Shown: positions 10,771-64,000 of the stretch, in pieces | Layout of the letters: every line of letters begins with the position of its first letter | Position numbering within the stretch: position 1 is the first letter of the stretch | From: Platanthera guangdongensis | Lineage: Eukaryota > Streptophyta > Magnoliopsida > Asparagales > Orchidaceae | Assembly (NCBI GenBank): GCA_039583875.1 | Contig: CM077152.1 | Span: 22,233,538-22,297,537, forward strand | Reading direction: 5' to 3' | DNA: 64,000 nucleotides | The notes under the pieces: model-generated | Seen by the model: the letters and a program-made list of their open reading frames with translations, nothing else | What the model was told of the DNA's origin: nothing | The model's database searches: none | Program-made: the position numbers and the translations under genes

Positions 10771-11575
10771 TGTAACATCCGTTAATTGACACGGAAATTT
10801 ATTTAAAATTATAGGGGAAAGTCGCGACGAATTTTGATCGAGGCGGCGCGTTGGCAAGGTATAATGTTACTTTTCCTTTTGATAGCGACCATTAGTTCGT
10901 TAAGTGCATTAATTATAGTGCGTGACGCGTTCTTTTAGTGGCGCGCAGTGAGAATGAAGTTATTTTGTAAGGAAATAACCTTGGGGTGCCAATAGGAAAT
11001 TCCCCCCCCCCCTTCTCATGCGGTTATCAAAACCGCAAGGCGTAATAAATCACGCACATTCATTTGCTCACGGGAGAAGAGGAATATCGCAGCCCGACTG
11101 TTCCGTTTCCGCAAACCCGACGACGCCCTGCCGACGCATCCCGCGGGCCTTCCGCCGGCCAATCCTCCTCCGGATTCCATCTCCGACTTCTCCTCCCTCC
11201 TCTGCTGGCATCGGTGGGCATTCCTTTTCCTTCCTTAGCCGTGGAAATGCCGGATACAACCCTAACCGGTGGAAGTTGAACGTTTTGGTTTCGGTGAGTT
11301 CGTTCTCTTCCTTTTCTCCATTTCCTCACAGAAATCCTTCGATTTCGGAGTAGTATAACCTAGGTTTTCATTTTGTTTGCCTTATTTTAGGTTTTGATGT
11401 TCATAGTTCACCACGGATTTTGTGTGGAACGCGTTGGGAGCCTCAATCGCTATAAGCAAAGGTAATATGCGAAGTTTAACTATGTATTTTTTTGAAACCT
11501 TAGATGTTTTGGAGATTTTCCACCGGAAACCCTAAAAGGGGAACAATTACGAAAATAGGTTCTATCCTTAGCGGC
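10771..11575 (+). repeat. G1 LTR, 5' portion only
   Basis: The LTR starts TGTAACATCCGTTAATTGACA after the polypurine tract. It keeps the G1 landmarks: a long C run, ATGCGGTTATCAAAACCGC, GCCGTGGAAATGCCGGAT and the TTCGGTGAGTTCG donor-like site. It stops matching other G1 LTRs near 11560-11575. The middle of the LTR, including the gag start exon, is missing from this block. Confidence 0.8.
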
Positions 11576-12275: not shown

Positions 12276-12359
12276 TCGAGATCGTCGTTTGATTTCTGTT
12301 TTCTTCTTCCTCAAAGATGCGCTTAATCCATTTCAAACTCTTGAAGTATCAGGAAAAAC

Positions 12360-14535
12360 AAAGCTCAAGTCCTCGAGTGGTAGGTCTCCGTAAGACCAAA
12401 TCCCTGCACGAGCTCCCCTCCTGCACATTGGCCGCAGATCTCCTCGAGAGAGATCGAGACCCTCGCTGGAGTGATGCCGTAGTCCGAGACCTCTGTACGA
12501 GCTCCCCTCCTGCAGACCGACTACTTGCCTCCCCGAGTCGACCTACACCACTCCAGTTGAGCAAGGCTCCTGAGAGCTGTCGACTCCAACAAAGCTCAAG
12601 TCCTCGAGTGGTAGGTCTCCGTAAGACCAAATCCCTGCACGAGCTCCCCTCCTGCACATTGGCCGCAGATCTCCTCGAGTGAGACGAGACCCTCGCTGGA
12701 GTGATGCCGTAGTCCGAGACCTCTGTACGAGCTCCCCTCCTGCAGATCGACTACTTGCCTCCCCGAGTCGACTTACACCACTCCAGTTGAGCAAGGCTCC
12801 TGAGAGCTGTCGACTCCAACAAAGCTCAAGTCCTCGAGTGGTAGGTCTCCGTAAGACCAAATCCCTGCACGAGCTCCCCTCCTGCACATTGGCCGCAGAT
12901 CTCCTCGAGTGAGACGAGACCCTTGCTGGAGTGATGCCGTAGTCCGAGACCTTTGTACGAGCTCCCCTCCTGCAGACCGACTACTTGCCTCCCCGAGTCG
13001 ACCTACACCACTCCAGTTGAGCAAGGCTCCTGAGAGCTGTCGACTCCAACAAAGCTCAAGTCCTCGAGTGGTAGGTCTCCGTAAGACCAAATCCCTGCAC
13101 GAGCTCCCCTCCTGCACATTGGCCGCAGATCTCCTCGAGTGAGACGAGACCCTCGCTGGAGTGATGCCGTAGTCCGAGACCTCTGTACGAGCTCCCCTCC
13201 TGCAGACCGACTACTTGCCTCCCCGAGTCGACCTACACCACTCCAGTTGAGCAAGGCTCCTGAAAGCTGTCGACTCCAACAAAGCTCAAGTCCTCGAGTG
13301 GTAGGTCTCCGTAAGACCAAATCCCTGCACGAGCTCCCCTCCTGCACATTGGCCGCAGATCTCCTCGAGTGAGACGAGATCCTCGCTGGAGTGATGCCGT
13401 AGTCCGAGACCTCTGTACGAGCTCCCCTCCTGCAGACCGACTACTTGCCTCCCCGAGTCGACCTACACCACTCCAGTTGAGCAAGGCTCCTGAGAGCTGT
13501 CGACTCCAACAAAGCTCAAGTTCTCGAGTGGTAGGTCTCCGTAAGACCAAATCCCTGCACGAGCTCCCCTCCTGCACATTGGCCGCAGATCTCCTCGAGT
13601 GAGACGAGACCCTCGCTGGTGTGATGCCGTAGTCCGAGACCTCTGTACGAGCTCCCCTCCTGCAGACCGACTACTTGCCTCCCCGAGTCGACCTACATCA
13701 CTCTAGTTGAGCAAGGCTCCTGAGAGCTGTCGACTCCAACAAAGCTCAAGTCCTCGAGTGGTAGGTCTCCGTAAGACGAAATCCCTGCATGAGCTCCCCT
13801 CCTGCACATTGGCCGCAGATCTCCTCGAGTGAGATGAGACCCTCGCTGGAGTGATGCCGTAGTCCGAGACATCTGTACGAGCTCCCCTCCTGCAGACCGA
13901 CTACTTGCCTCCCCGAGTCGACCTACACCACTCCAGTTGAGCAAGACTCCTGAGAGCTGTCGACTCCAACAAAGCTCAAGTCCTCGAGTGGTAGGTCTCC
14001 GTAAGACCAAATCCCTGCACGAGCTCCCCTCCTGCACATTGGCCGCAGATCTCCTCGAGTGAGACGAGACCCTCGCTGGAGTGATGCCATAGTCCGAGAC
14101 CTCTGTACGAGCTCCCCTCCTGCAGACCGACTACTTGCCTCCCCGAGTCGACCTACACCACTCCAGTTGAGCAAGGCTCCTGAGAGCTGTCGACTCCAAC
14201 AAAGCTCAAGTCCTCGAGTGGTAGGTCTCCGTAAGACCAAATCCCTGCACGAGCTCCCCTCCTGCACATTGGCCGCAGATCTCCTCGAGAGAGATCGAGA
14301 CCCTCGCTGGAGTGATGTCGTAGTCCGAGACCTCTGTACGAGCTCCCCTCCTGCAGACCGACTACTTGCCTCCCCGAGTCGACCTACACCACTCTAGTTG
14401 AGCAAGGCTCCTGAGAGCTGTCTACTCCAACAAAGCTCAAGTCCTCGAGTGGTAGGTCTCCGTAAGACCAAATCCCTGCACAAGCTCCCCTCGTGCACAT
14501 TGGCCGCAGGCCTCCTCGAGTGAAATCGAGTCAGA
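12360..14535. repeat. 230-bp tandem array, nine full units plus a partial
   Basis: Units start with AAAGCTCAAG at 12360, 12591, 12821, 13051, 13281, 13511, 13741, 13971, 14201 and 14432 (partial). Each unit is itself two diverged halves of about 115 bp that share ACGAGCTCCCCTCCTGCA. Units differ by only a few bases. The first and last full units are 231 bp with GAGAGAGATCGAGAC, while the inner units are 230 bp with GAGTGAGACGAGAC, so the inner units were amplified from one variant. The repeated 77- and 114-codon frames on each strand are not genes. Confidence 0.95.
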
Positions 14536-26538: not shown

Positions 26539-28703
26539 TGTAACATCCATAAATCTGACGCGATTTTATTTAAAATTTGTAGGGGAAGGTCGCGACGAAT
26601 TTTTGATCGAGGCGGCGCGTTGACAAGGTATAATGTTACTTTTCCTTTTGATAGCGACCATTAGTTCGTTAAGTGCGTAAATTTTAGTGCGTGACGCGTT
26701 CTTTTAGTGGCGCGCAGTGAGGATGAAGTTTTGTGTAAGGAAATAGCCTTGGGGTGCCAATAGGATTTCCCCCCCCCTCTCTCATGCGGTTTATAATCAA
26801 AACTGCAAGCCAAATCCCGCACAACCCTTTTTCTCTCGGGAATAAACCGCAGCCCGTCTCCCGCAAAACCGACGCACGCGCCCGTCCGTCTCCCGCAGCG
26901 ATCGAAGCCGCGCCTCCCGCAAGCCTCTCCGGCGTCCGATTCCTCTCCGGAAACCATCTCCGACCACTCCTCCCTCCTCTACGAGCACCGGTAGACATTC
27001 CTTTTCCTTCCTTGGCCGTGGAAGTGCCGGATTCAACCCTAATCGGTGGAACTTGGAATTTTTCGGTTTCGGTGAGTTTATTTCTTCCTTTTCTCCATTT
27101 CCTCACGGAAATCCTTCGATTTCGGAGTTAGTATAACCTAGGTTTTCTTCTTTGTGCCCTAATTAGGTTTTGGAGCACGATTTCCACCGCGAAATTGGAG
27201 TTGGGCGCTTTGGAAACTTCAATCCCTCCCACGTGAAGGTAATATACTATGTTAGCAGTTAGTTTTGGACGACTCTAGCATTTTGGAATTTTTTTTCGAA
27301 AGTTTAACCCTAAGGGGAAAGTGCGATAATTAGGACTGCCTTGAATTTGCAGGACTTTGGTGGGATCGGGGCAACATTCTAAAGCTCCCCAGCTGTAGGG
27401 TTTGCTTTTGGAAGAGAATATGTCGCCGCGTCGAGTATACGAGCGTCGCAGTACCACTGTAAGGAAATTCTAATTCCTTTTAGTTAGACATATCAAGTAA
27501 TTGTATTTTATACGCATAAGTAGGTTTCGTACAACATCATAATCATGCATAGAAAAGTGTGACAGTAGGAAAATAATCGTGGAGACACGTATGAGAACGC
27601 CTTCTTCCATAACCACGTTAGTTAAGTCGTGAACAGTTAGTTAAGTACGAAACTTCACATGTACACGTAAGTTTGGAGATTGTCCAACCAAGGGTGCGAA
27701 GGTCCCTTCGCGTCGACCACGAGAAAGTCAAGGGTCGCTCAGTAGTACACCAGAAAAGATATCCCATGCAGAGTAGCGTCAGACCAACAAGGTCAGTAGC
27801 ACACCAGTCTTTTCGTGCTTGGTAGAGGCGCACTACCATCCTCATAGGGCATATGGTATCCTATGAGTTACAGTCTTGGGAGTTGACTCCCCTTTGAGAC
27901 AGTTAGCAGATTCGAGACCGTGTCCGCGTGGCACTAGAACAATTGAGTTCGTCAGATGGTCTCGGGTCGTCAGTTTCAGATTTTGCGCGTTAGGAGCTAC
28001 TTTGCCTAGAGCCTTCCCAGTAAACATGTAGGCTAGAAGCCACCTAGAACTCAAGTACAGACTTGACGTGAGACAGTACACTAGTTAGTGAACGTCATGA
28101 CTTGGGTAAATGAACGAAAAGTCATGAGTATAAAATTATAGTGTTCACCAGTAAGTATAGGAAAAACATGCATATCATATATCATGAAATATTTTCAGTG
28201 CACGAGACTAGTTTTAAAGACATGCATGCATTCATATGTAAATCTATTTTAGTGTCACTAAGGGGAATTGTTTTTCTTTACTCTGACCCTTCGTGGGCAA
28301 TGTTTTTCTGGTGACCCAGGTGGGAAACTTCGTCTAGGATGAGTGTCATGGTGGTGTCCGAGTGTAGTACTTTTACTATTTTCAGTTTACTCCGTTTTCA
28401 GCATGTACTTGTAATTGTGGACAGTGTAACTCATTAATATTTTATGTATCTTGTATCAGACTTATTTGATAGTTCAGATTTTCAGTTAATGAAGTCTCAT
28501 TTTTGTTTAGTGGCTCTGTGAATCCAGACATCAGTTATGTGGTTAACCTTAGTTTAATTTTTACTCCCGCTGTAAGTATTAAATCTGTTTAGTTTGGACT
28601 TTTATTACCTGCTGCTACTAGTTTTGATACAGCTTCCTAGTTTTCTTTATATCGCTGACCCGGCCGGACAGCTGATTTCTGTAATACTGGGAAGGGGTGT
28701 TAC
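26539..28703 (+). repeat. G1 solo LTR (about 2.17 kb)
   Basis: From TGTAACATCCATAAATCTGAC to GGGAAGGGGTGTTAC, full length compared with the array LTRs (2.2 kb) but more diverged. No primer-binding site or internal sequence follows, so it is a solo LTR left by LTR-LTR recombination. The 5-bp flanks (TGTCC on the left, CCACC on the right) do not match, and the final A is changed, so the target duplication is unconfirmed. It keeps the conserved gag start exon. Confidence 0.85.
27353..27458 (+). CDS. G1 gag start exon in the solo LTR
   Basis: Bounded by an acceptor (TTGAATTTGCAG) and a donor (GTAAGG). The ATG at 27420 opens 13 codons encoding MSPRRVYERRSTT, identical to the array copies, while four third-codon positions differ (CGC/CGT, GAA/GAG, AGC/AGT, ACG/ACT). 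In a solo LTR it has no downstream gag and can be only a relic. Confidence 0.7.
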
Positions 28704-29152: not shown

Positions 29153-29280
29153 TGTAACATCCGAAATTTGACGCGAAAAAATTATTTGATTTGTAGGGGC
29201 AAATCGCGACGAATTTTGATCGAGGCACCGCAACGTCAAGGTACAATGCTTCTATTGCTACAACTCGCATTCATTAGCTG
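29153..29280 (+). repeat. G1 LTR 5' fragment fused to protease region
   Basis: The first 128 bp of the LTR end at CATTAGCTGGTG and continue as CAGTTTGGTGACACC of pol. The parent LTR reads CTGGTGATTT and the parent pol ACCGGTGCAG, so GGTG is shared at the joint. Confidence 0.92.
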
Positions 29281-32200
29281 GTGCAGTTTGGTGACACCGA
29301 GATTATTGTGGAAGCTTTGCAGCTACCTATTGCAGGATTCGACCTGATTTTTGGAATGGATTGGCTTTCGGCAGTCAACGCCAGGATTGACTGTAGGGCG
29401 AAGCAGATACAGTTTGATGGCCCCAATCAGACTTCGTTTTCTTTTCAGGGCTTGAAGGGAGTAGTGAAAATGATTATATCTGCAGTCCAAGCGAGAAGGT
29501 GCATCAGTAAGGGTTGCGAAACCTTCGTAGTACTGATGAATGCAGAGACTAAGGCTGAGTTGTCAGAGGTACCAGTGGTGCAGGAATTCCCCGATGTCTT
29601 CCCGGAAGAGCTCCCTGGTGCCCCTCCAGATAGAGAGATTGAGTTCCCGATAGACTTGCAGCCTGGGGCTACACCGGTAGCCAAATCTCCCTATCGGATG
29701 GCTCCAAGGGAACTAGCAGAGCTGAAGAGTCAGTTGCAGGAGTTACTTGATTTGGGTTTTATACGCCCCAGCACTTCACCATGGAGTGCTCCAGTGCTTT
29801 TTGTGAAGAAGAAAGACGGTAGTCTGAGACTGTGCATAGACTACCGTGAGTTGAACAAGCTAACAGTAAAGAACAAGTACCCAATTCTCAGGATTGATGA
29901 TTTGTTCGACCAGTTGGTGGGATCGAACACTTTCTCCAAGTTAGATCTGAGGTCAGGCTATCACCAATTAAAGATTCGTGATTTGGATATTCAGAAGACG
30001 ACTTTCAACACCAAATATGGACACTTCGAGTTCGTGGTCATGCCGTTTGGGCCGACCAATGCTCCTTCAGTATTTATGGACCTGATGAACATGGTATTTC
30101 GGGAGTACTTGGACCGTTTTGTCATCGTCTTTATAGATGACATCTTGGTGTTCTCTAAGAGTGCAGAAGATCATGCAGCACATCTCAGGATTGTTTTGAG
30201 CACACTCAGAAAAAATCAGTTGCTTGCCAAGTTTTCAAAGTGCGAGTTTTGGCTTTCAGAGATTGCATTCTTAGGCCATATCATCAGTCAGAAAGGAGTT
30301 AGTGTTGATCCGAAGAAGATAGAGGCCATTAAGAGTTGGCCAAGGCCGACGACAGTTTCAGAGGTTCGCAGCTTTTTGGGTCTTGCTGGTTACTACAGGA
30401 GATTCATCAGAGATTTTTCGAAGATAGCCTTACCACTGACTTCCCTCACCAGGAAGGGTAAGGGCTTGGATTGGACAGTTGAGTGTGAGTTGGCTTTTGG
30501 GGACTTGAAGGGCAGGTTGATGACCGCACCGATTTTGAGTTTACCATCAGGGCCTGACGGGTTTCAGATCTACTGCGATGCATCAGGTCAGGGTTTGGGG
30601 TGTGTTCTCATGCAGCATGGAAATGTCGTAGCCTATGCCTCGAGACAATTAAAGGTTCATGAGAGGAACTATCCAGTGCATGACTTGGAGCTTGCAGCAG
30701 TCATACATGTTTTGAAGATTTGGAGGCACTATCTCTATGAAGTGCGTTGTGAGATCTTCACTGATCATAAGAGCCTCAAGTATATCTTTGATCAGCGAGA
30801 GCTCAATTTGAGGCAGCGCAGATGGTTAGAGTTTCTATCAGACTACGACGTAGACATTCAGTACCATCCAGGAAAGGCGAACGTTGTAGCTGATGCCCTT
30901 AGCCGTAGAGGTTCGTGTTTCTTTCTCCTCACTCAGCAGGAGGAGTTAGTGCGAGAGCTGGAGAGACTGGATATTACCATTGTGCCACGCAGTAGTTTTG
31001 GTTCTGCAAGGTTGAGTTGGATGAAGATTACCTGCGATATCAAGGACAGAATCAGGACAGCTCTACCGCTGGATCCAAAGATGACAGAGATTTGGAGCTC
31101 AGCGCAGTCAGGACAGAATGAGGGATTCACTATTCAGGATGAATTACTATTGATTGATGGCAGGTTGTGTATCCCCGATGTTAGTCACCTTCGCGAGGAT
31201 ATTTTATTTGAGGCACACAATTCCAGATATTCTATACATCCGGGTAGCACGAAGATGTATGCAGATCTCAAGAAGCTAGTCTGGTGGCCAGGCTTGAAGA
31301 AAGATGTTGCAGATTACGTAGGGAAGTGTGAGACGTGCAAGTTGGTTAAGGCCGAGTGCCAAAGGCCTGGAGGCAAGTTGCAGCCACTTCCCATTCCTGA
31401 GTGGACATTCGAAGATATATCCATGGATTTCATTCATGGTTTGCCGAGATCGCAGAGTGGGAATGATTCATTGTGGGTTATAGTTGATCGACTTTCTAAG
31501 GTCGCCCATTTCATTCCTCTTAGGAAGACGGATCAAGGTCCGAAGCTGGCACAGTTATATTTGGACGAGATAGTACGGCTTCACGGTATTCCCAGGACTA
31601 TAGTTTCAGACCGAGACGGCAGATTCACCTCCAGAGAGTGGCGATACGTACAGGAGCGGTTGGGTACCAGGTTACACTTCAGCACCGCTTTCCATCCCCA
31701 GACCGATGGACAGACTGGGCGCACAAATAGGACTTTGGAGGATTTGTTACGGATGTGCATTTTGGATTTTGGAGGAAAGTGGGAGAAATATGTTACACTA
31801 GTGGAGTTCTCCTACAACAATAGTTTTCAGACAAGTATTGAGATGACACCGTTCGAGGCCCTCTATGGCAGACGTTGTCGGACACCGTTATGTTGGGCTG
31901 AAAGTGAAGAGAGATCCACAATCAGGGAGTCATGGATTGATAAGACCACTGATAGGATCAAGCTTATTCAGGAGCGTATGAAGACAGCTCAGGATCGCCA
32001 GGCCAAGTATCATGATCAGAAGCACAGGTCAGTAGAGTTCAGTGTTGGAGACTACGTTTATCTGAAGGTCAGACCAGTCAGAGGAGTTTCTAGAATAAAG
32101 CTGATGAAAAAGCTGAGCCCCAGATTCGTTGGTCCTTTTGAGGTACTGGAAAGAATTGGTGAGGTTGCTTACAGATTGGCCTTACCTGAGGAGATGAGTG

Positions 32201-32508
32201 GTGTACATGATGTCTTCCACGTCTCTTATCTGAGGAGAGCAGTCAGAGATCCTAGTCAGATCATAAGTACCGAGGAAGCACCAATTGAGACATATCTTAG
32301 TATTGGGGTTAGACCAGCCAGAATAGTGGATTCAAGGATACAGAAGCTCAGAAATAGAGAGATTCGCATGATCAAAGTCCTTTGGATGAACTGTGGCAGG
32401 CCAGAGTATACTTGGGAGCGTGAGGATAAATTTAAGAGCAATGCAGACTATTCTTTTCTCTTCGATTCAGGTATGACTACAATTTTCGAGGACGAAAATT
32501 TTTGTTAG
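29281..32508 (+). pseudogene. G1 pol, left array unit, gag and N-terminal protease deleted
   Basis: 1075 codons, open from the deletion joint to TAG at 32508, with no true start codon. It lacks the DTG of the protease and begins at [16 protein letters not shown] ([32 protein letters not shown]), RNase H ([28 protein letters not shown]), the integrase zinc region ([13 protein letters not shown]), the core and the C-terminal tail are complete. The catalytic Glu of the integrase DDE triad is Gly here ([12 protein letters not shown] against [12 protein letters not shown] in the right unit). It could give RT sequence but not integration. Confidence 0.93.
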
Positions 32509-32519
32509 GAGGGGAGATT

Positions 32520-34730
32520 TGTAACATCCGAAATTTGACGCGAAAAAAATTATTTGATTTGTAGGGGCAAATCGCGACGAATTTTGATCGAGTCACCGCA
32601 ACGTCAAGGTACAATGCTTCTATTGCTACAGCTCGCGTTCATTAGCTGGTGATTTAAGTTAGTCATATTAGCGAGACGCATTTTAATTGTAGTAACGAAG
32701 AGCGACGAGAAATCACTTAGTGCAATGGTATGTGTTTGGTGTGGAGTGGGTTGTGTATAGCGAAAAAAAAATTTATAGCCTTGGGGTGCCAATAGAAATT
32801 CCCCCCCCCCCTCTTCTCATGCGGTTATCAAAACCGCAAGGCTTAAATAAAACCCGCATTTCTCATCTCTCGGGAATAAACCGCAGCCGTCTCCCGCAAA
32901 CAGTCGCTCGCACCGTCCGTCTCCCGCAGCGCGCAGAGCCGACGCCTCCCGCAAGCTTCTCCGGCGCCCGATCCTCCTCCGAAACCTTTCTCCGATCACT
33001 CCTCCCTCCTCTACGAGCACCGGTGGGCATTCCTTTTCCTTCCTTAGCCGTGGAAGTGCCAGATTCAACCCTAACCGGTGGAAGTGAACGTTTTGGCTTC
33101 GGTGAGTTCGATTCCTTCCTTTCTCTCGCTTTCTACTTGGTTTTCCTTTGATTTGGAAACAAATTTAACCTAGGTTTTCGTTTTGATTGCCCTATCCTAG
33201 GTTTTGGTGTTCGTAGTCCACCACGGTTTTTGTGTGGAACGCGTTAGGAGCCTCAATCGGTACTTAAAGGTAATAATTGATGTATAACTCATGAATGTTG
33301 TAACCCTAGCTCTATATATATTTTTTATGGGAATATCGTAGAGGGAAAGTTCTAAAATTAGGGTTACGGTAAATTTCAGGACTTTGGCGGGGTTGGGGCA
33401 GCTTTTGAAGGTCTCCAACAGCAGAATTTACTTTTGGAAAAGAAAATGTCGCCGCGCCGAGTATACGAACGTCGCAGCACCACGGTAAGGAAATCCTAAT
33501 TCCTTTTAGTTAGACATATCAAGTAATTGTATTTTATACGCATAAGTAGGTTTCGTACAACATCATAATCATGCATAGAAAAGTGTGACAGTAGGAAAAT
33601 AATCGTGGAGACACGTATGAGAACGCCTTCTTCCATAACCACGTTAGTTAAGTCGTGAACAGTTAGTTAAGTACGAAACTTCACATGTACACGTAAGTTT
33701 GGAGATTGTCCAACCAAGGGTGCGAAGGTCCCTTCGCGTCGACCACGAGAAAGTCAAGGGTCGCTCAGTAGTACACCAGAAAAGATATCCCATGCAGAGT
33801 AGCGTCAGACCAAAAAGGTCAGTAGCACACCAGTCTTTTCGTGCTTGGTAGAGGCGCACTACCATCCTCATAGGGCATATGGTATCCTATGAGTTACAGT
33901 CTTGGGAGTTGACTCCCCTTTGAGACAGTTAGCAGATTCGAGACCGTGTCCGCGTGGCACTAGAACAATTGAGTTCGTCAGATGGTCTCGGGTCGTCAGT
34001 TTCAGATTTTGCGCGTTAGGAGCTACTCTGCCTAGAGCCTTCCCAGTAAACGTGTAGGCTAGAAGCCACCTAGAACTCAAGTACAGACTTGACGTGAGAC
34101 AGTACACTAGTTAGTGAACGTCAGGACTTGGGTAAATGGACGGAAAGTCATGAGTATAGAATCATAGTGTTCACCAGTAAGTATAGGAAAAGCATGCATA
34201 TCATATATCATGAAATGTTTTCAGTGCACGCGACTAGTTTTAAAGACATGCATGCATTCATATGTAAATCTATTTTAGTGTCACTAAGGGGAATTGTTTT
34301 TCTTTACTCTGACCCTTCGTGGGCAATGTTTTTCAGGTGACCCAGGTGGGAAACTTCGTCTAGGATGAGCGTCATGGTGGTGTCCGAGTGTAGTACTTTT
34401 ACTATTTTCAGTTTACTCCATTTTCAGCATGTACTTGTAATTATGGACAGTGTAACTCATTAATATTTTATGTATCTTGTATCTGACTTATTTGATAGTT
34501 CAGATTTTCAGTTAATGCAGTCTCATTTTTGTTTAGTGGCTCTGGGAATCCAGACATCAGGTATGTAGTTAACCTTAGTTTAATTTTTACTTCCGCTGTA
34601 AGTATTAAATCTGTTTAGCTTGGACTTTTATTACCTGCTGCTACTAGTTTTAATACTGCTTCCTAGTTTTCTTTATATCGCTGACCCGGCCGGACGGCTG
34701 ATTTCTGTAATACTGGGAAGGGGTGTTACA
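32520..34730 (+). repeat. G1 central LTR (2211 bp), 5' LTR of the full unit
   Basis: TGTAACATCCGAAATTTGACG to GGGAAGGGGTGTTACA. It serves as 3' LTR of the left unit and 5' LTR of the right. Inside are a TTCG|GTGAGT donor at 33112, a TTTCAG acceptor at 33379 and the gag start exon at 33446-33484. A TTAAATAAAA box near 32845 may be the promoter, which would give a leader of about 550 bases with one intron (inference). Confidence 0.93.
33446..33484 (+). CDS. G1 gag first coding exon, within the LTR
   Basis: Thirteen codons (MSPRRVYERRSTT), phase 0, followed by the donor GTAAGG. The exon as a whole runs 33380-33484. The next in-phase acceptor is TTCTATCAG at 34936, after which gag continues ATRVSEPGE. 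The intron (33485-34936, 1452 bp) covers the rest of the LTR and the primer-binding site. A basic MxPRR start is common for plant Gypsy Gag. The same 13 residues are kept in the solo LTR despite four synonymous differences. No transcript evidence is available here. Confidence 0.68.
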
Positions 34731-34733
34731 AAT

Positions 34734-34745
34734 TGGTATCAGAGC
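34734..34745 (+). promoter_or_regulatory. Primer-binding site, initiator Met tRNA
   Basis: TGGTATCAGAGC, three bases after the LTR. It primes minus-strand DNA synthesis. It lies within the proposed first gag intron, so spliced gag mRNA lacks it. Confidence 0.92.
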
Positions 34746-34936
34746 GAGGTTTAGGATCCCTGGACCCTAGAAGGTTTTCACAGAGCCATAAGACTGTATA
34801 ACAGTAAACTTTTGTTAGTAGAGCATTTTAAGTTGCGTTTAAGGCTTAGTTTTTCGCAGGAGTACGAATATAGTTGTCAAGCCAGTTTTAGTAGACGCTT
34901 GATAAATAACCAGATTTCTTTTATATGTTCTATCAG

Positions 34937-36307
34937 GCTACTCGAGTAAGTGAACCAGGTGAATCTTCACGTCAGGACCCTGTTCCTAACGCCACTATGG
35001 GAGATGCTGCAGTGCCACAGGTACCTCCAGTTCCAGCAGCTTCAGAGGGCACTGATATAGCGTCTCAGATTGCCAAGGCGGTTACTGTTGCCTTGATGGA
35101 GTTTCAGAGAGGACTGGCTGCAGGGTTTCCAGTTCCAGGGCACGTACCAGCCCCTGCACCAGCTCCTGCCCCAGCACCCGTGGAGATGACCCTGGAGCGT
35201 TATTTGAGGAATTTTAGGGAACTTCAGCCTTCAAACTTCAATGGGGATGAGACCCCGATGGATACAGATGATTGGGTAGCAAACAGCAGAGATCTGCTGG
35301 ATGTTTTGGAGTGCCCAGAGAATAAGAAGGTTCCTCTGGCAGTTTTCCTCCTCCGAGGTGAGGCAAAGGTCTGATGGGACAAGTACCGGGCGGATGATCC
35401 CGCAGGTAAATGGTTATGAAAATTCCTTTAATTATTTTGGAAGTGATATGTTCTTTCTTTAAATAGTATGATTATGTTTTTGGCCAGGTCGTACGCCAGA
35501 CATGTTTACGTGGGGCGAATTTTCTAGAGCCCTTGCGAATTGGTTCGTGCCTCCTTCCGCACGACGAGGTCTACAGGAGAGATAACTTAGGCTTTTCCAG
35601 GGGGACAGGACTGTTGCTGAGTACGAGCGAGAGCTTACCCATCTGGCTCGATATGCGGGCGTAATGCAGGGAGACCAGACTGAGAAGTGCAGCCGCTTTG
35701 TGGATGGCTTACGTGACTCATTGAGACAGCCGCTGATGACCATGGTCAATGCTGATTACATGAGCTTAGTGGATACGGCTCGCAGGCTGGAGGCTGACCA
35801 GTAGAAGGTTCAAAAGCGAAGTAATTTCCGTGCAAAGCGATCTCAGGATTCGCATCAGTCGCAGCAGAGCAGGAATGATCAGGGGAAGAACTGGAACAAG
35901 AAGCAGAAGCCTGATGCGAGGAAGTATGGTCAATCTGGTGACAGGAGCAGGGACTACCCCCTTTGTCCCAAGTGTCAGCGTCGCCATCCAGGAGAGTGTT
36001 TGGCCAGCGCGGGCGTGTGTTACAAGTGTCGTCAACCTGGACACATTGCTCGTTTCTGTCAGGAAGGTGGTTCGAATCAGGTAATCAACCTTGTTGTATT
36101 TTTTGTACATTTATAAATTTTCGGTAGATGACAAATGCATTTTGTTCCTGCAGTCGAAGTATGAGATTGGTGGCCCTAGCAGAGCAGAAAAGGGCAAAGC
36201 GTTGATGATTACCGATGGAAGACCACAACAGGATCGAGATTTGGTGCAGCCCAGAGCTTATGGACTTGGTCAGCAGGAGGCTAAGGGGCAGGAAAATGTG
36301 GTGACAG
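34937..36307 (+). pseudogene. G1 gag, exons 1-3, broken by stops
   Basis: Gag capsid and nucleocapsid. Exons are 34937-35412, 35488-36080 and 36154-36307. The introns (75 and 73 bp) are AT-rich GT-AG. Exon 1 has the AP repeat (PAPAPAPAPAP) and the conserved FRELQPSNFNGDE and NKKVPLAVFLLRGEAK. Exon 2 has the Gag core (FTWGEFSRALANWF) and a CCHC knuckle (CYKCRQPGHIARFC). Exon 3 is a linker ending QENVVTG. Lesions are TGA at 35372-35374, a one-base gain near 35389, TAA at 35583-35585 and TAG at 35802-35804. The inverted copy at 20309-21405 lacks these lesions. This copy cannot make Gag, although its pol is intact. The donor G|GTTATG at 35413 is weaker than the nearby CAG|GTAAAT but is the one that keeps phase. 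Confidence 0.8.
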
Positions 36308-36387
36308 GTAAGTGTTTAATTTGCCTGATAAGCTTATTTAACACTCCGTAGTGACATTCTTTTCTTTTTGAAAATTCATTCATGTAG

Positions 36388-39300
36388 GCATCCTTATGAT
36401 TCGAAATTTACCCTCTAAGATTCTGTTTGATACGGGTGCCTCGCACTCGTTTATCGCAGAATCTCTAGTGCGTAAGTTGAATTTAGGAGTATTCTCAGAG
36501 ACTGTAGCGTTGGATATTATGATGCCGAATGGATCTCTTCTGCAGACCAGAGATAGGTGCAGGGTACCGGTGCAGTTTGGTGACACCGAGATTATTGTGG
36601 AAGCTTTGCAGCTACCTATTGCAGGATTCGACCTGATTTTTGGAATGGATTGGCTTTCGGCAGTCAACGCCAGGATTGACTGTAGGGCGAAGCAGATACA
36701 GTTTGATGGCCCCAATCAGACTTCGTTTTCTTTTCAGGGCTTGAAGGGAGTAGTGAAAATGATTATATCTGCAGTCCAAGCGAGAAGGTGCATCAGTAAG
36801 GGTTGCGAAACCTTCGTAGTACTGATGAATGCAGAGACTAAGGCTGAGTTGTCAGAGGTACCAGTGGTGCAGGAATTCCCCGATGTCTTCCCGGAAGAGC
36901 TCCCTGGTGCCCCTCCAGATAGAGAGATTGAGTTCCCGATAGACTTGCAGCCTGGGGCTACACCGGTAGCCAAATCTCCCTATCGGATGGCTCCAAGGGA
37001 ACTAGCAGAGCTGAAGAGTCAGTTGCAGGAGTTACTTGATTTGGGTTTTATACGCCCCAGCACTTCACCATGGAGTGCTCCAGTGCTTTTTGTGAAGAAG
37101 AAAGACGGTAGTCTGAGACTGTGCATAGACTACCGTGAGTTGAACAAGCTAACAGTAAAGAACAAGTACCCAATTCTCAGGATTGATGATTTGTTCGACC
37201 AGTTGGTGGGATCGAACACTTTCTCCAAGTTAGATCTGAGGTCAGGCTATCACCAATTAAAGATTCGTGATTTGGATATTCAGAAGACGACTTTCAACAC
37301 CAAATATGGACACTTCGAGTTCGTGGTCATGCCGTTTGGGCCGACCAATGCTCCTTCAGTATTTATGGACCTGATGAACATGGTATTTCGGGAGTACTTG
37401 GACCGTTTTGTCATCGTCTTTATAGATGACATCTTGGTGTTCTCTAAGAGTGCAGAAGATCATGCAGCACATCTCAGGATTGTTTTGAGCACACTCAGAA
37501 AAAATCAGTTGCTTGCCAAGTTTTCAAAGTGCGAGTTTTGGCTTTCAGAGATTGCATTCTTAGGCCATATCATCAGTCAGAAAGGAGTTAGTGTTGATCC
37601 GAAGAAGATAGAGGCCATTAAGAGTTGGCCAAGGCCGACGACAGTTTCAGAGGTTCGCAGCTTTTTGGGTCTTGCTGGTTACTACAGGAGATTCATCAGA
37701 GATTTTTCGAAGATAGCCTTACCACTGACTTCCCTCACCAGGAAGGGTAAGGGCTTGGATTGGACAGTTGAGTGTGAGTTGGCTTTTGGGGACTTGAAGG
37801 GCAGGTTGATGACCGCACCGATTTTGAGTTTACCATCAGGGCCTGACGGGTTTCAGATCTACTGCGATGCATCAGGTCAGGGTTTGGGGTGTGTTCTCAT
37901 GCAGCATGGAAATGTCGTAGCCTATGCCTCGAGACAATTAAAGGTTCATGAGAGGAACTATCCAGTGCATGACTTGGAGCTTGCAGCAGTCATACATGTT
38001 TTGAAGATTTGGAGGCACTATCTCTATGGAGTGCGTTGTGAGATCTTCACTGATCATAAGAGCCTCAAGTATATCTTTGATCAGCAAGAGCTCAATTTGA
38101 GGCAGCGCAGATGGTTAGAGTTTCTATCAGACTACGACGTAGACATTCAGTACCATCCAGGAAAGGCGAACGTTGTAGCTGATGCCCTTAGCCGTAGAGG
38201 TTCGTGTTTCTTTCTCCTCACTCAGCAGGAGGAGTTAGTGCGAGAGCTGGAGAGACTGGATATTACCATTGTGCCACGCAGTAGTTTTGGTTCTGCAAGG
38301 TTGAGTTGGATGGAGATTACCTGCGATATCAAGGACAGAATCATGACAGCTCTACCGCTGGATCCAAAGATGACAGAGATTTGGAGCTCAGCGCAGTCAG
38401 GACAAAAGGAGGGATTCACTATTCAGGATGAATTACTATTGATTGATGGCAGGTTGTGTATCCCCGATGTTAGTCACCTTCGCGAGGATATTTTATTTGA
38501 GGCACACAATTCCAGATATTCTATACATCCGGGTAGCACGAAGATGTATGCAGATCTCAAGAAGCTAGTCTGGTGGCCAGGCTTGAAGAAAGATGTTGCA
38601 GATTACGTAGGGAAGTGTGAGACGTGCAAGTTGGTTAAGGCCGAGTGCCAAAGGCCTGGAGGCAAGTTGCAGCCACTTCCCATTCCTGAGTGGACATTCG
38701 AAGATATATCCATGGATTTCATTCATGGTTTGCCGAGATCGCAGAGTGGGAATGATTCATTGTGGGTTATAGTTGATCGACTTTCTAAGGTCGCCCATTT
38801 CATTCCTCTTAGGAAGACGGATCAAGGTCCGAAGCTGGCACAGTTATATTTGGACGAGATAGTACGGCTTCACGGTATTCCCAGGACTATAGTTTCAGAC
38901 CGAGACGGCAGATTCACCTCCAGAGAGTGGCGATACGTACAGGAGCGGTTGGGTACCAGGTTACACTTCAGCACCGCTTTCCATCCCCAGACCGATGGAC
39001 AGACTGAGCGCACAAATAGGACTTTGGAGGATTTGTTACGGATGTGCATTTTGGATTTTGGAGGAAAGTGGGAGAAATATGTTACACTAGTGGAGTTCTC
39101 CTACAACAATAGTTTTCAGACAAGTATTGAGATGACACCGTTCGAGGCCCTCTATGGCAGACGTTGTCGGACACCGTTATGTTGGGCTGAAAGTGAAGAG
39201 AGATCCACAATCAGGGAGTCATGGATTGATAAGACCACTGATAGGATCAAGCTTATTCAGGAGCGTATGAAGACAGCTCAGGATCGCCAGGCCAAGTATC

Positions 39301-39797
39301 ATGATCAGAAGCACAGGTCAGTAGAGTTCAGTGTTGGAGACTACGTTTATCTGAAGGTCAGACCAGTCAGAGGAGTTTCTAGAATAAAGCTGATGAAAAA
39401 GCTGAGCCCCAGATTCGTTGGTCCTTTTGAGGTACTGGAAAGAATTGGTGAGGTTGCTTACAGATTGGCCTTACCTGAGGAGATGAGTGGTGTACATGAT
39501 GTCTTCCACGTCTCTTATCTGAGGAGAGCAGTCAGAGATCCTAGTCAGATCATAAGTACCGAGGAAGCACCAATTGAGACATATCTTAGTATTGAGGTTA
39601 GACCAGCCAGAATAGTGGATTCAAGGATACAGAAGCTCAGAAATAGAGAGATTCGCATGATCAAAGTCCTTTGGATGAACTGTGGCAGGCCAGAGTATAC
39701 TTGGGAGCGTGAGGATAAATTTAAGAGCAATGCAGACTATTCTTTTCTCTTCGATTCAGGTATGACTACAATTTTCGAGGACGAAAATTTTTGTTAG
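36388..39797 (+). CDS. G1 Pol: protease, RT, RNase H, integrase, chromodomain-like tail
   Basis: The final exon of the G1 polyprotein, open for about 1136 codons. It joins exon 3 across an 80-bp intron (36308-36387) to restore VVTG-ILMI, exactly the motif that is uninterrupted in G2 (VVTGILLI). An internal ATG lies at 36396. Domains in order: protease ([14 protein letters not shown]), RT ([31 protein letters not shown]), RNase H ([23 protein letters not shown]), integrase zinc finger ([25 protein letters not shown]) and DDE core ([29 protein letters not shown]). The tail is Tekay/Del-type CHDCR ([19 protein letters not shown]). All catalytic residues that I can see are present. Gag would have to come from another copy. 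Confidence 0.95.
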
Positions 39798-39806
39798 GAG
39801 GGGAGA
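39796..39806 (+). promoter_or_regulatory. Polypurine tract of G1
   Basis: AGGAGGGGAGA overlapping the pol stop and three bases before the 3' LTR. It primes plus-strand synthesis. The same tract precedes the LTRs at 32520 and 10771. Confidence 0.85.
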
Positions 39807-39808
39807 TT

Positions 39809-42017
39809 TGTAACATCCGAAATTTGACGCGAAAAAAATTATTTGATTTGTAGGGGCAAATCGCGACGAATTTTGATCGAGGCACCGCAACGTCAAGGTA
39901 CAATGCTTCTATTGCTACAGCTCGCGTTCATTAGCTGGTGATTTAAGTTAGTCATATTAGCGAGACGCATTTTAATTGTAGTAACGAAGAGCGACGAGAA
40001 ATCACTTAGTGCAATGGTATGTGTTTGGTGTGGAGTGGGTTGTGTATAGCCAAAAAAATTTATAGCCTTGGGGTGCCAATAGAAATTCCCCCCCCCCTCT
40101 TCTCATGCGGTTATCAAAACCGCAAGGCTTAAATAAAACCCGCATTTCTCATCTCTCGGGAATAAACCGCAGCCGTCTCCCGCAAACAGTCGCTCGCACC
40201 GTCCGTCTCCCGCAGCGCGCAGAGCCGACGCCTCCCGCAAGCTTCTCCGGCGCCCGATCCTCCTCCGAAACCTTTCTCCGATCACTCCTCCCTCCTCTAC
40301 GAGCACCGGTGGGCATTCCTTTTCCTTCCTTAGCCGTGGAAGTGTCGGATTCAACCCTAACCGGTGGAAGTGAACGTTTTGGCTTCGGTGAGTTCGATTC
40401 CTTCCTTTCTCTCGCTTTCTACTTGGTTTTCCTTTGATTTGGAAACAAATTTAACCTAGGTTTTCGTTTTGATTGCCCTATCCTAGGTTTTGGTGTTCGT
40501 AGTCCACCACGGTTTTTGTGTGGAACGCGTTAGGAGCCTCAATCGCTACTTAAAGGTAATAATTGATGTATAACTCATGAATGTTGTAACCCTAGCTCTA
40601 TATATATTTTTTTATGGGAATATCGTAGAGGGAAAGTTCTAAAATTAGGGTTACGGTAAATTTCAGGACTTTGGCGGGGTTGGGGCAGCTTTTGAAGGTC
40701 TCCAACAGCAGAATTTACTTTTGGAAAAGAAAATGTCGCCGCGCCGAGTATACGAACGTCGCAGCACCACGGTAAGGAAATCCTAATTCCTTTTAGTTAG
40801 ACATATCAAGTAATTGTATTTTATACGCATAAGTAGGTTTCGTACAACATCATAATCATGCATAGAAAAGTGTGACAGTAGGAAAATAATCGTGGAGACA
40901 CGTATGAGAACGCCTTCTTCCATAACCACGTTAGTTAAGTCGTGAACAGTTAGTTAAGTACGAAACTTCACATGTACACGTAAGTTTGGAGATTGTCCAA
41001 CCAAGGGTGCGAAGGTCCCTTCGCGTCGACCACGAGAAAGTCAAGGGTCGCTCAGTAGTACACCAGAAAAGATATCTCATGCAGAGTAGCGTCAGACCAA
41101 AAAGGTCAGTAACACACCAGTCTTTTCGTGCTTGGTAGAGGCGCACTACCATCCTCATAGGGCATATGGTATCCTATGAGTTACAGTCTTGGGAGTTGAC
41201 TCCCCTTTGAGACAGTTAGCAGATTCGAGACCGTGTCCGCGTGGTACTAGAACAATTGAGTTCGTCAGATGGTCTCGGGTCGTCGGTTTCAGATTTTGCG
41301 CGTTAGGAGCTACTCTGCCTAGAGCCTTCCCAGTAAACGTGTAGGCTAGAAGCCACCTAGAACTCAAGTACAGACTTGACGTGAGACAGTACACTAGTTA
41401 GTGAACGTCAGGACTTGGGTAAATGGACGGAAAGTCATGAGTATAGAATCATAGTGTTCACCAGTAAGTATAGGAAAAGCATGCATATCATATAACATGA
41501 AATGTTTTCAGTGCACGCGACTAGTTTTAAAGACATGCATGCATTCATATGTAAATCTATTTTAGTGTCACTAAGGGGAATTGTTTTTCTTTACTCTGAC
41601 CCTTCGTGGGCAATGTTTTTCAGGTGACCCAGGTGGGAAACTTCGTATAGGATGAGCGTCATGGTGGTGTCCGAGTGTAGTACTTTTACTATTTTCAGTT
41701 TACTCCATTTTCAGCATGTACTTGTAATTATGGACAGTGTAACTCATTAATATTTTATGTATCTTGTATCAGACTTATTTGATAGTTCAGATTTTCAGTT
41801 AATGCAGTCTCATTTTTGTTTAGTGGCTCTGTGAATCCAGACATCAGGTATGTGGTTAACCTTAGTTTAATCTTTACTTCCGCTGTAAGTATTAAATCTG
41901 TTTAGCTTGGACTTTTATTACCTGCTGCTACTAGTTTTAATACTGCTTCCTAGTTTTCTTTATATCGCTGACCCGGCCGGACGGCTGATTTCTGTAATAC
42001 TGGGAAGGGGTGTTACA
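39809..42017 (+). repeat. G1 3' LTR of the array (2209 bp)
   Basis: Nearly identical to 32520-34730, with a few substitutions and length changes in C and A runs. It carries the gag start exon again (ATG at 40733, codons 40733-40771). It ends at TGTTACA, followed by TACTA. Confidence 0.93.
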
Positions 42018-49683: not shown

Positions 49684-49770
49684 CTGTGGACGGGTCACGT
49701 CTTCTACTGGTCTTCGTTCTGCCTCTGCCTGAGCCCGTCTAGCGGGGTCTGGTACGCTAGTGCTCGGTTC
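49684..49770 (-). other. Possible G2 gag exon within the LTR
   Basis: On the minus strand an 87-nt open stretch (EPSTSVPDPARRAQAEAERR...) lies between the acceptor ATATTTCAG and CAG|GTTAGC. The 5' LTR copy (63706-63792) keeps the frame with two synonymous and about three replacement changes, and has CGA|GTTAGC at the donor side. It parallels the G1 LTR exon, but the upstream ATG exon and the exact downstream junction were not found. Confidence 0.4.
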
Positions 49771-62201: not shown

Positions 62202-63269
62202 TCATCTCTGACCCCTTCCGCAGGTGCCGGTGCTATCGACTCCCCTTCCCTGGAAGTCCCAATATGACAAATTTTCTGAGGCTGGAGCTCCCCTCGAACT
62301 TTCCTCCCTTTGTAGTTTTGGACAATCCTTTCGACGATGGCCCGGTTGGCGACAGTAAAAACAGACTCCGGTCAAGCATTCCCCTCGGTGCATCTTGCCA
62401 CATTTGGCACACTTGGTCGACGTTTATTGGGACACTTGAGTGCTACCAGTTGACATTGCTTGTTGCTGCTTCTTCTTTTTCCATGGGGCTTCACTTGTTC
62501 CACCCGATTTCTCTTGTCTAACACCCTCTTTGAACCTCTTTCTCATATCTGTCCTCCTCTGTCTCTTTTCATTGTCTAGTTTGACTGATCGAGACTTTTC
62601 CACCAGCAGTGCATACTCCGTAATATCAAACGGAACCACTGAAGCACGAATATCATCCCGCAACCCTTTCTAGAACCGTACACAACGAGCTTCCTCGGTC
62701 GCCACTGCAGACTCTGCATAGTACGCTAACCTGGAAAATTCGGCTTCATACTGCAGAACAGAGCGATTTCCTTGAACCAATCACAAAAACTTCTCCTGAA
62801 GTTTCCTCTTTTCTGTCCGCGACACAACCCACTTTGTAAATTCGCGAACGAACTCTGCCCAGGACACATTCGCCAAACCGCGAGTCTGAAGCTTTCCTTT
62901 CATCAGATTCGCCCACCATCTCTTAGCCTCTCCTTCCAGAAGAAAAACAGCCAACTCCACCTTCCTCTCCGCGGGGCACCGCATCGTATCAAATATCGTT
63001 TCAATCCGCAGGATCCAATCTTCCGTCTCGATCAGAGGTAAACCACCGCGAAACGCCGGCGGTTTCAGTTCTAAAAATTGCTTCATATCAATGTCAATTG
63101 AGCGAAGCTGATGCGGTCCCATATATGCTGGAGGAGGCACAACTGGCATAACTGGGGGTACGCCAGAAGGAGGTACAACTAGAGGGGTGTCCCGAACCAA
63201 CCGAATAGCTTCCGCGATAGCTTGTTCAATATCAGCGATATGCACTACGGAAGACTGTCTCCCACTCAC
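62202..63269 (-). pseudogene. G2 gag, degenerate
   Basis: 63269-62781 has the Gag body (FLELKPPAFRGGLP, AVFLLEGEAKRWWANLMKG, VSWAEFVREFTKWVV). After a stop near 62778, 62663-62424 continues with the basic C-terminal part, and 62393-62202 holds a CCHC knuckle (CFYCRQPGHRRKDC). The frame continues upstream of 63269 across a TAA, and no ATG fits at the start. As in G1, the N-terminus may lie on another exon. Confidence 0.8.
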
Positions 63270-63465
63270 ACTTTATTCTGATCTAGAATCCCTTGAATTC
63301 TCAGGTTCATTTGGAGCCTCTCGCATTCTGCGGCTCGAATACACTTGGAAAGGTTCATGAGGAATAAGCAAAAGACAGTTCAGTATATTCTGATATTCCA
63401 GTCTCGTCATTGTGATTTATGTTCCATCCTGGTACTCTGCGTTACACGCACTGTGAGAAACCTCT

Positions 63466-63482: not shown

Positions 63483-64000
63483 TGTAACGGCCCAAATTCC
63501 GCCACAATTTAATTGCATTCTTTTTGAGGGGGTTTTTCACGTAATTATACGCAGCAGAATAAATCAAGAAGTGTACCAGTGAAACATATATAACATCACA
63601 TTTCATTAATATACAAAATATATATACACTGTCATGTGTAAAAATATTCACATTTACTACATTACAAATATCTAACAACAGTACAAGAAATAAACTCATG
63701 CTAACTCGTGGACGAGCCACGTCTTCTACTGATCTTCGTTCCGCCTCTGCCTGAGCCCGTCTAGCGGGGTCTGGTACGCTGGTGCTCGGTTCCTGAAATA
63801 TTAGAAACTAATTAGTTTTTAAAACTAAGTGAATTCCTTAACCTTACCAGTAGCTTCACTTTGCAAGCAGACAAGAGAGTCAGCAACAATGAAATCTATA
63901 TGAATATGTTTCTCAGTTAGGAACAGGTGAAATCATCAATTCTGTATCTGAAATCACTTCATATTTCATTTGTCCTGTTTCTATCAATTTCCTTTTTATT
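63483..64000 (-). repeat. G2 5' LTR, cut by the window end
   Basis: Matches 49465-49963 and then 55285 onward, with small indels and substitutions. It contains the unoccupied Copia-B target. Positions 63706-63792 are the second copy of the possible gag exon. Confidence 0.9.

Follow-up and report, generated by a model that had tools for sequence, protein, structure and literature searches.

The G1 Locus

The window is a stretch of 64,000 nucleotides (nt) from Platanthera guangdongensis (contig CM077152.1, positions 22,233,538 to 22,297,537), and all coordinates given here refer to it. It contains G1, a Ty3/Gypsy retrotransposon with long terminal repeats (LTRs), between which protease, reverse transcriptase (RT), RNase H, and integrase follow in this order. 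The Pfam matches run RVP_2, RVT_1, RT_RNaseH, Integrase_H2C2, rve, and SH3_Tf2-1, and at the integrase end the chromodomain PF00385 is weakly matched (E 0.0039, 17.5 bits, below the cut-off of 25.1). From this domain content we tentatively take G1 to be of the Tekay/Del kind. The nearest named database proteins are gene models of Platanthera zijinensis. In the window copy pol is a long open frame and gag is broken by stops. The segment 29280-34730 is repeated at 36569-42017 with 99.5% identity, therefore the locus is a multi-LTR array (29280-42017). The subject of this report is a 39-base exon inside the G1 LTR which carries the start codon of Gag (Table 1).

A Start Exon Inside the LTR

A first-pass annotation, made from the sequence alone, described an ATG plus 12 codons encoding MSPRRVYERRSTT, followed by GTAAGG, in three G1 LTRs. 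This is borne out at 27420, 33446, and 40733. All three carry the open reading frame (ORF), but they amount to only two independent sequences, because those at 33446 and 40733 (identical over the 39 bases) lie in the LTRs of one recent element. The exon at 27420 differs at bases 12, 24, 33, and 39, all of them third codon positions and all silent, as had been stated. Its LTR (LTR A) had been called solo; it does stand alone, but it is not a clean solo LTR and is in addition a mosaic. Its final base is missing and no target-site duplication is visible by eye. From just past the exon onward LTR A is nearly identical to LTRs B and C, and upstream it is divergent. A reading of the downstream near-identity as uniform conservation was rejected, since comparison of the LTR halves revealed the mosaic. 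Seven of the 57 LTRs compared are mosaics (W_A, L053, L055, L068, L083, L087, and L094), with identities to G1 of 0.86-1.0 downstream of the exon and 0.66-0.74 upstream. They look as if upstream and downstream modules had been swapped near the start exon.

Across the exon the two LTR types differ at 4 of 39 positions with no amino-acid change. Just upstream (27083-27427), each of seven 50-column blocks shows 10-24 differences between them, and blocks farther upstream show 3-9. The agreement within the exon is more than chance would give. The acceptor that had been placed upstream of the exon is also real: at least 46 of 58 aligned rows have a CAG whose last base is at 33379, a lower bound counted from the six commonest forms of these rows. 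The splice-like sites kept in the LTR at 33102 and 33270-33379 suggest that the 5′ untranslated region (UTR) has one or two introns too.

Selection on the 13 Codons

Sixty genomic loci were gathered by means of the downstream gag exon and not the LTR exon, so that the sample was not chosen for conservation of the latter. They consist of the first 51 of 150 scored places and nine lower ones picked by hand; because of this choice too few of the most recent, near-identical copies are represented. The exon is carried by 56 of the 60 loci, and no recognisable start exon was found in L058, L065, L075, and L085. Before codon counts L082 and L088 (indels) and W_C (a duplicate of W_B) were dropped, leaving 56 aligned LTR sequences, namely 54 loci together with W_A and W_B of the window. 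An earlier set (L001-L028, 28 of 40 scored places) is biased because its query contained the exon; here MSPRRVYERRSTT occurs in 25 of 28 and the donor GT in 26 of 28.

Mean pairwise mismatch at codon positions 1, 2, and 3 is 0.080, 0.109, and 0.198, respectively. In the flanks it is 0.268 over the 65 upstream bases and 0.199 over bases 7-70 of the intron, whose first six bases score 0.056. The replacement-to-silent ratio pN/pS is 0.345 in frame vs. 1.27-1.94 in four shifted frames, and lies at 0.61-0.75 in three UTR windows, with only 15 sequences available for the windows at -52 and -39. Changes along branches were counted by parsimony on three trees built from the flanks only, with the flank mutation spectrum providing the expectation. 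On internal branches there were 7-9 replacement changes against 34-49 expected (0.15-0.23) and 16-20 silent changes against 16-21 expected (0.77-1.23), a contrast with P values of 2e-5 to 5e-4 over the three trees. On terminal branches, 59-61 replacement changes compare with 74-78 expected (0.77-0.83) and 47-50 silent changes with 35-37 expected (1.31-1.38); CpG changes are found on terminal branches only. These counts are limited by parsimony, by recombination between LTR halves, and by a spectrum that has no CpG context. The comparison of silent and replacement change across many LTR copies, which the first-pass annotation had proposed as a check, favours protein-level selection that is largely relaxed on terminal branches. 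The pattern fits a protein-coding exon of a family whose ancestors were active and whose present copies are mostly dead.

Intron 1, the Primer-Binding Site, and a Joined Protein Model

The peptide is found joined to Gag in P0006, a P. zijinensis gene model of 1554 amino acids from a cluster of 12 member sequences. Its N-terminus reads MPPRRVYERRTTA and then APRVSEPGEPSRQ (APRVSEPGE), with the join at the predicted phase-0 junction 33484/34937. Residues 1-12 are 83% identical to the LTR exon, and residue 14 aligns with the first codon past the 34937 acceptor. P0006 residues 1-70 were searched in the 4.25-Gb assembly and the best 150 of 1995 candidate places were scored; in these the genome matches start only at residue 11-14. 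Since P0006 is fused while the scored places match only from there on, the join can be attributed to an intron (intron 1). A contiguous copy of exon and gag is unlikely to exist in the assembly, because it would have outscored these best 150 places. Within this intron lies the primer-binding site (PBS), whose primer we take to be tRNA-Met.

The donor GT of intron 1 is present in 58 of 59 rows and its acceptor AG in 56 of 61. In the first 31 bases past the acceptor, four of the five most variable sites are third positions of the Gag frame. Moreover, two other gene models run into Gag from different upstream sequence, P0043 at the same residue as P0006 and P0001 no more than four residues away; gene prediction could yield such entries where a strong acceptor lies close to host exons. 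The codon test and P0006 together support the proposal that the peptide is the real Gag N-terminus, held by selection on the protein while the family was active. Additions to what was first noted are the PBS within intron 1, three more introns in gag-pol, and the similar plan of a second family.

Two LTRs about 7.2 kb apart (L022 and L023), probably of one element, have TTAAGG at their intron-1 donors. As both LTRs share it, this damaged-donor copy seems to have moved, perhaps via proteins from other copies.

Introns 2 to 4 and Their Natural Loss

Mapping of P0006 to the window left coding gaps at 35405/35488, 36080/36154, and 36307/36388, each bounded by GT...AG, and all four introns lie upstream of the protease domain match. 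Of 59 measurable loci, 58 retain intron 2 at a length of 68-87 nt; by our own reading, 54 of these have the GT and 57 the AG. It is missing in L055, exactly at CAG/G. The next stretch of the same element (L101) is missing intron 3 at the exact junction and retains intron 4. In L102 and L103 only intron 2 is missing, again exactly at the splice sites. Such exact loss is the trace left when partly spliced RNA is reverse transcribed, and splicing of introns 2 and 3 in the plant is therefore very probable. All three intron-loss elements still have the start exon in the LTR together with its donor, as well as the leader surrounding the PBS. L110 (same element as L103) has the PBS 12-mer unchanged, L108 (same element as L102) differs from it at one base, and L055 retains its first 11 bases. 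Retention of intron 1 in RNAs that had lost other introns fits a need for the PBS inside it.

The P0006 search also gave five places with open frames of more than 200 amino acids, four of which were fetched (C15 was left out). The long open frame of L104 (C11) was rejected as a case of intron loss; it is a deletion and not a clean loss.

Table 1. Positions of the G1 features and of the second Gypsy family in the window (a slash marks a splice site).
Feature	Position	Strand	Remarks
LTR A, isolated mosaic	26539..28703	+	start exon 27420-27458
LTR B of G1 element	32520..34730	+	ends TGTAACATCC...GGTGTTACA; near-identical to LTR C
Candidate 5′ UTR splice donor	33102	+	GGTGAGTT begins 33101; GGTGAGT then T/C/G in 45/58 rows
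Candidate 5′ UTR intron before start exon	33270..33379	+	AG/GTAAT...CAG/; AGGTAATA or AGGTAAAA in 50/58 rows
Gag start-codon exon	33446..33484	+	13 codons MSPRRVYERRSTT, phase 0 end; joined to Gag in P0006
Intron 1	33485..34936	+	1452 nt; rest of LTR, PBS, leader; boundaries agree with P0006
Primer-binding site	34734..34745	+	TGGTATCAGAGC, exact match; within intron 1
Gag exon 2	34937..35405	+	ATRVSEPGE...; in-frame stop in window copy
Intron 2	35406..35487	+	82 nt, within gag
Gag exon 3	35488..36080	+	P0006 mapping
Intron 3	36081..36153	+	73 nt; AATCAG/GTAATC...CCTGCAG/TCGAAG; P0006 spans it
Exon 4	36154..36307	+	P0006 mapping
Intron 4	36308..36387	+	80 nt; GACAG/GTAAGT...TGTAG/GCATCC; P0006 resumes right after
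Exon 5 of gag-pol	36388..39797	+	protease, RT, RNase H, integrase, weak chromodomain
LTR C of G1 element	39809..42017	+	start exon 40733-40771
Second family gag exon, past PBS-containing intron	62280..63356	-	P0080 residues 49-408
Second family LTR end	63483	-	PBS-like stretch TGGTATCAGAG begins 63476
Second family coding exon in LTR	63706..63792	-	EPSTSVPDPARRAQAEAERRSVEDVARPR; P0080 residues 22-50

Splicing as a Proposed Switch

We consider it highly likely that the 39 bases are the first Gag-Pol coding exon of a Ty3/Gypsy element of the Tekay/Del kind, that intron 1 joins this exon to gag, and that splicing acts as a switch. For intron 1, both its removal from the RNA and its role as a switch are our inference. 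Transcription would start upstream in the LTR and run through the ATG and its 12 codons. Removal of the 1452-nt intron from GTAAGG onward would take away the remainder of the LTR, the PBS, and the leader, and would join the start exon in frame to gag; with three further small introns removed, a single Gag-Pol frame would result. As reverse transcription cannot be primed on an RNA that lacks the PBS, the spliced RNA would be the message from which Gag-Pol is made and the RNA retaining intron 1 would be the template. Such a switch would explain the retention of introns in a family that moves through RNA. With less assurance, we think it probable that this plant Gypsy lineage has its PBS inside an obligate Gag-Pol intron, with splicing separating message from genome and several spliceosomal introns being carried along, and that the LTR start exon is the price.

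Several points weigh against this account. The comparison of 27420 with 33446 has, on its own, an n of 2. The expectation drawn from the flanks is inexact, since silent changes on terminal branches exceed it. Only 19 of the 60 fetched loci have the exact PBS 12-mer (38 have its first 11 bases), and L108, in an intron-loss element, is off by one base. The model predicts that copies without intron 1 are absent, and none was among the 150 places scored out of 1995 candidates; for intron 1 this also means that retrocopy evidence of the kind seen for introns 2 and 3 is missing. P0006 is a gene model; according to the passages available of the Platanthera genome paper, genes were predicted by MAKER from de novo, homology, and RNA-seq evidence (PMC9023349). 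Finally, an in-frame ATG at 34925, 12 bases upstream of the acceptor and present in 57 of 61 rows, could start Gag on unspliced RNA.

If Gag did start at this ATG (MFYQATRV...), the LTR peptide MSPRRVYERRSTTATRV would belong to an alternative isoform only. This is unlikely: counted from 33001, 28 other ATGs (33446 included) precede 34925, all with ORFs of at most 48 codons, and unspliced gag runs into stops beyond exon 2. In 3 of 61 rows the CAG before the acceptor has become TAG, which stops the 34925 frame and leaves the acceptor valid. The Gag homology common to P0006 and P0043 starts exactly past the acceptor, and a start at 34925 leaves the selection on the LTR exon unexplained. It is considerably less probable that the LTR ORF is a short regulatory upstream ORF outside Gag. 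Unspliced RNA does read MSPRRVYERRSTTVRKS, 17 codons and then a stop, but P0006 fuses the LTR peptide to Gag, for which this explanation was rejected, and the donor GT stands directly after codon 13 in all but one of the 59 rows. Least credible is conservation of the exon at the nucleotide level, as a promoter, a splicing enhancer, or an RNA structure, with the silent-only pattern arising by chance: the exon does hold the least variable 20-base window across 32775-33704, but the internal-branch counts, with silent change near the flank rate and replacement change well below expectation, led us to reject it.

Other Gypsy Families

A second, P0080-related Gypsy family, located on the minus strand at 58.8-64 kb of the window, has a plan similar to that of G1. 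The intron between its LTR exon and gag (near 63356) holds the LTR end and a PBS-like stretch. The exon is also found in a second LTR piece near 49770, and in the window copy the acceptor before gag is damaged. Among the best 150 of 1398 places, 51 match within residues 16-63 and 99 within residues 46-75 (counted by hand), and none of these 150 spans both LTR exon and gag exon. In L105, residues 1-20, 20-50, and 49 onward are encoded in three separate pieces, the second and third of which lie on either side of a PBS at 1830; the first piece holds the start codon and the middle acceptor is damaged. Judging from its place upstream of the PBS, the start exon would lie in the LTR, and the exon seen in the repeat itself is the second one.

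In a third Platanthera family (P0072, P0077, P0083, and P0095), an acceptor-like TTTAG stands before VTRS in L111, and the family (P0083, L111) seems to enter Gag at this acceptor (TTTAG/GTGACTCG). The 2.1 kb fetched for L111 showed neither a PBS 11-mer nor a recognisable basic start exon.

Elsewhere in the window, a tandem array of about 230-bp repeats (12357-14530) lies downstream of a truncated G1-like LTR that starts near 10771.

Comparison with Known Systems

G1 shares with Tekay/Del elements the Pol domain set, the TGGTATCAGAGC primer site, and a Tf2-1-like SH3 domain; its chromodomain match at the integrase end is weak and below the cut-off. A basic MxPRR Gag start is presumably a further likeness, and an MxPRR-like start was found in 7 of 121 fetched database proteins. 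G1 differs in its four introns and LTR Gag start exon; in the passages available of a survey of these elements, the one on introns concerned Ogre (PMC6317226). Ogre (Tat lineage), like G1, is a plant Ty3/Gypsy element, and in the passages available its intron survives retrotransposition and is spliced from a subset of transcripts. The first intron of G1, in contrast, has its donor inside the LTR and includes the PBS.

In EVADE, BARE1, copia elements with a short Gag, CRR, and Bagy2, the passages available describe splicing that, as proposed for G1, separates RNAs with different jobs, and for BARE the translated and replicated RNA pools are distinct (PMC3735527; PMC12786077). Splicing in these elements leads to Gag-only or other subgenomic RNAs, whereas in G1 it would be needed to bring in the start codon and to maintain the Gag-Pol reading frame. 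For Diaspora (Athila lineage, soybean), five donors were predicted in the LTR, along with two acceptors that flank the start codon of gag, and according to the 2005 paper introns upstream of gag had not been reported until then (PMC1142308). These sites are predictions of unknown relevance, and no LTR coding exon is described in the passages available (PMC1142308). Diaspora deserves a second look. CRM group A elements resemble G1 in a coding region that lies partly in the LTR, but there it is the C-terminal end that runs into the 3′ LTR, and the word "intron" is absent from the main text of that paper (PMC3059260).

Retroviruses resemble G1 as modelled here, with unspliced RNA serving as genome and spliced RNA as message. 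Retroviruses have their major donor downstream of the PBS. In G1 the donor (33485) is upstream of the PBS (34734) and inside the LTR, so that the PBS would be lost on splicing and the arrangement is not of the retroviral type. In Ty1 of yeast the Gag frame begins inside the 5′ LTR, as in G1, but without an intron. A December 2025 review, in the passages available, treats plant LTR elements as generally without introns and names Ogre and EVADE as exceptions (PMC12786077). No description of an LTR start exon together with a PBS inside the first intron was found in searches of open-access literature aimed at it, and an earlier account in a subscription journal is possible.

Implications

It has long been asked how a single LTR-retrotransposon RNA can serve as message and as genome, and the gene structure of G1 suggests a simple answer: a single splice could decide between protein and new copies. 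The same structure implies that in such families gene annotation can miss the true Gag N-terminus. It further implies that each LTR, also that at the 3′ end, has a start codon and a splice donor which could feed into host genes, and that the natural loss of introns in single copies is a record of the RNAs that were packaged.
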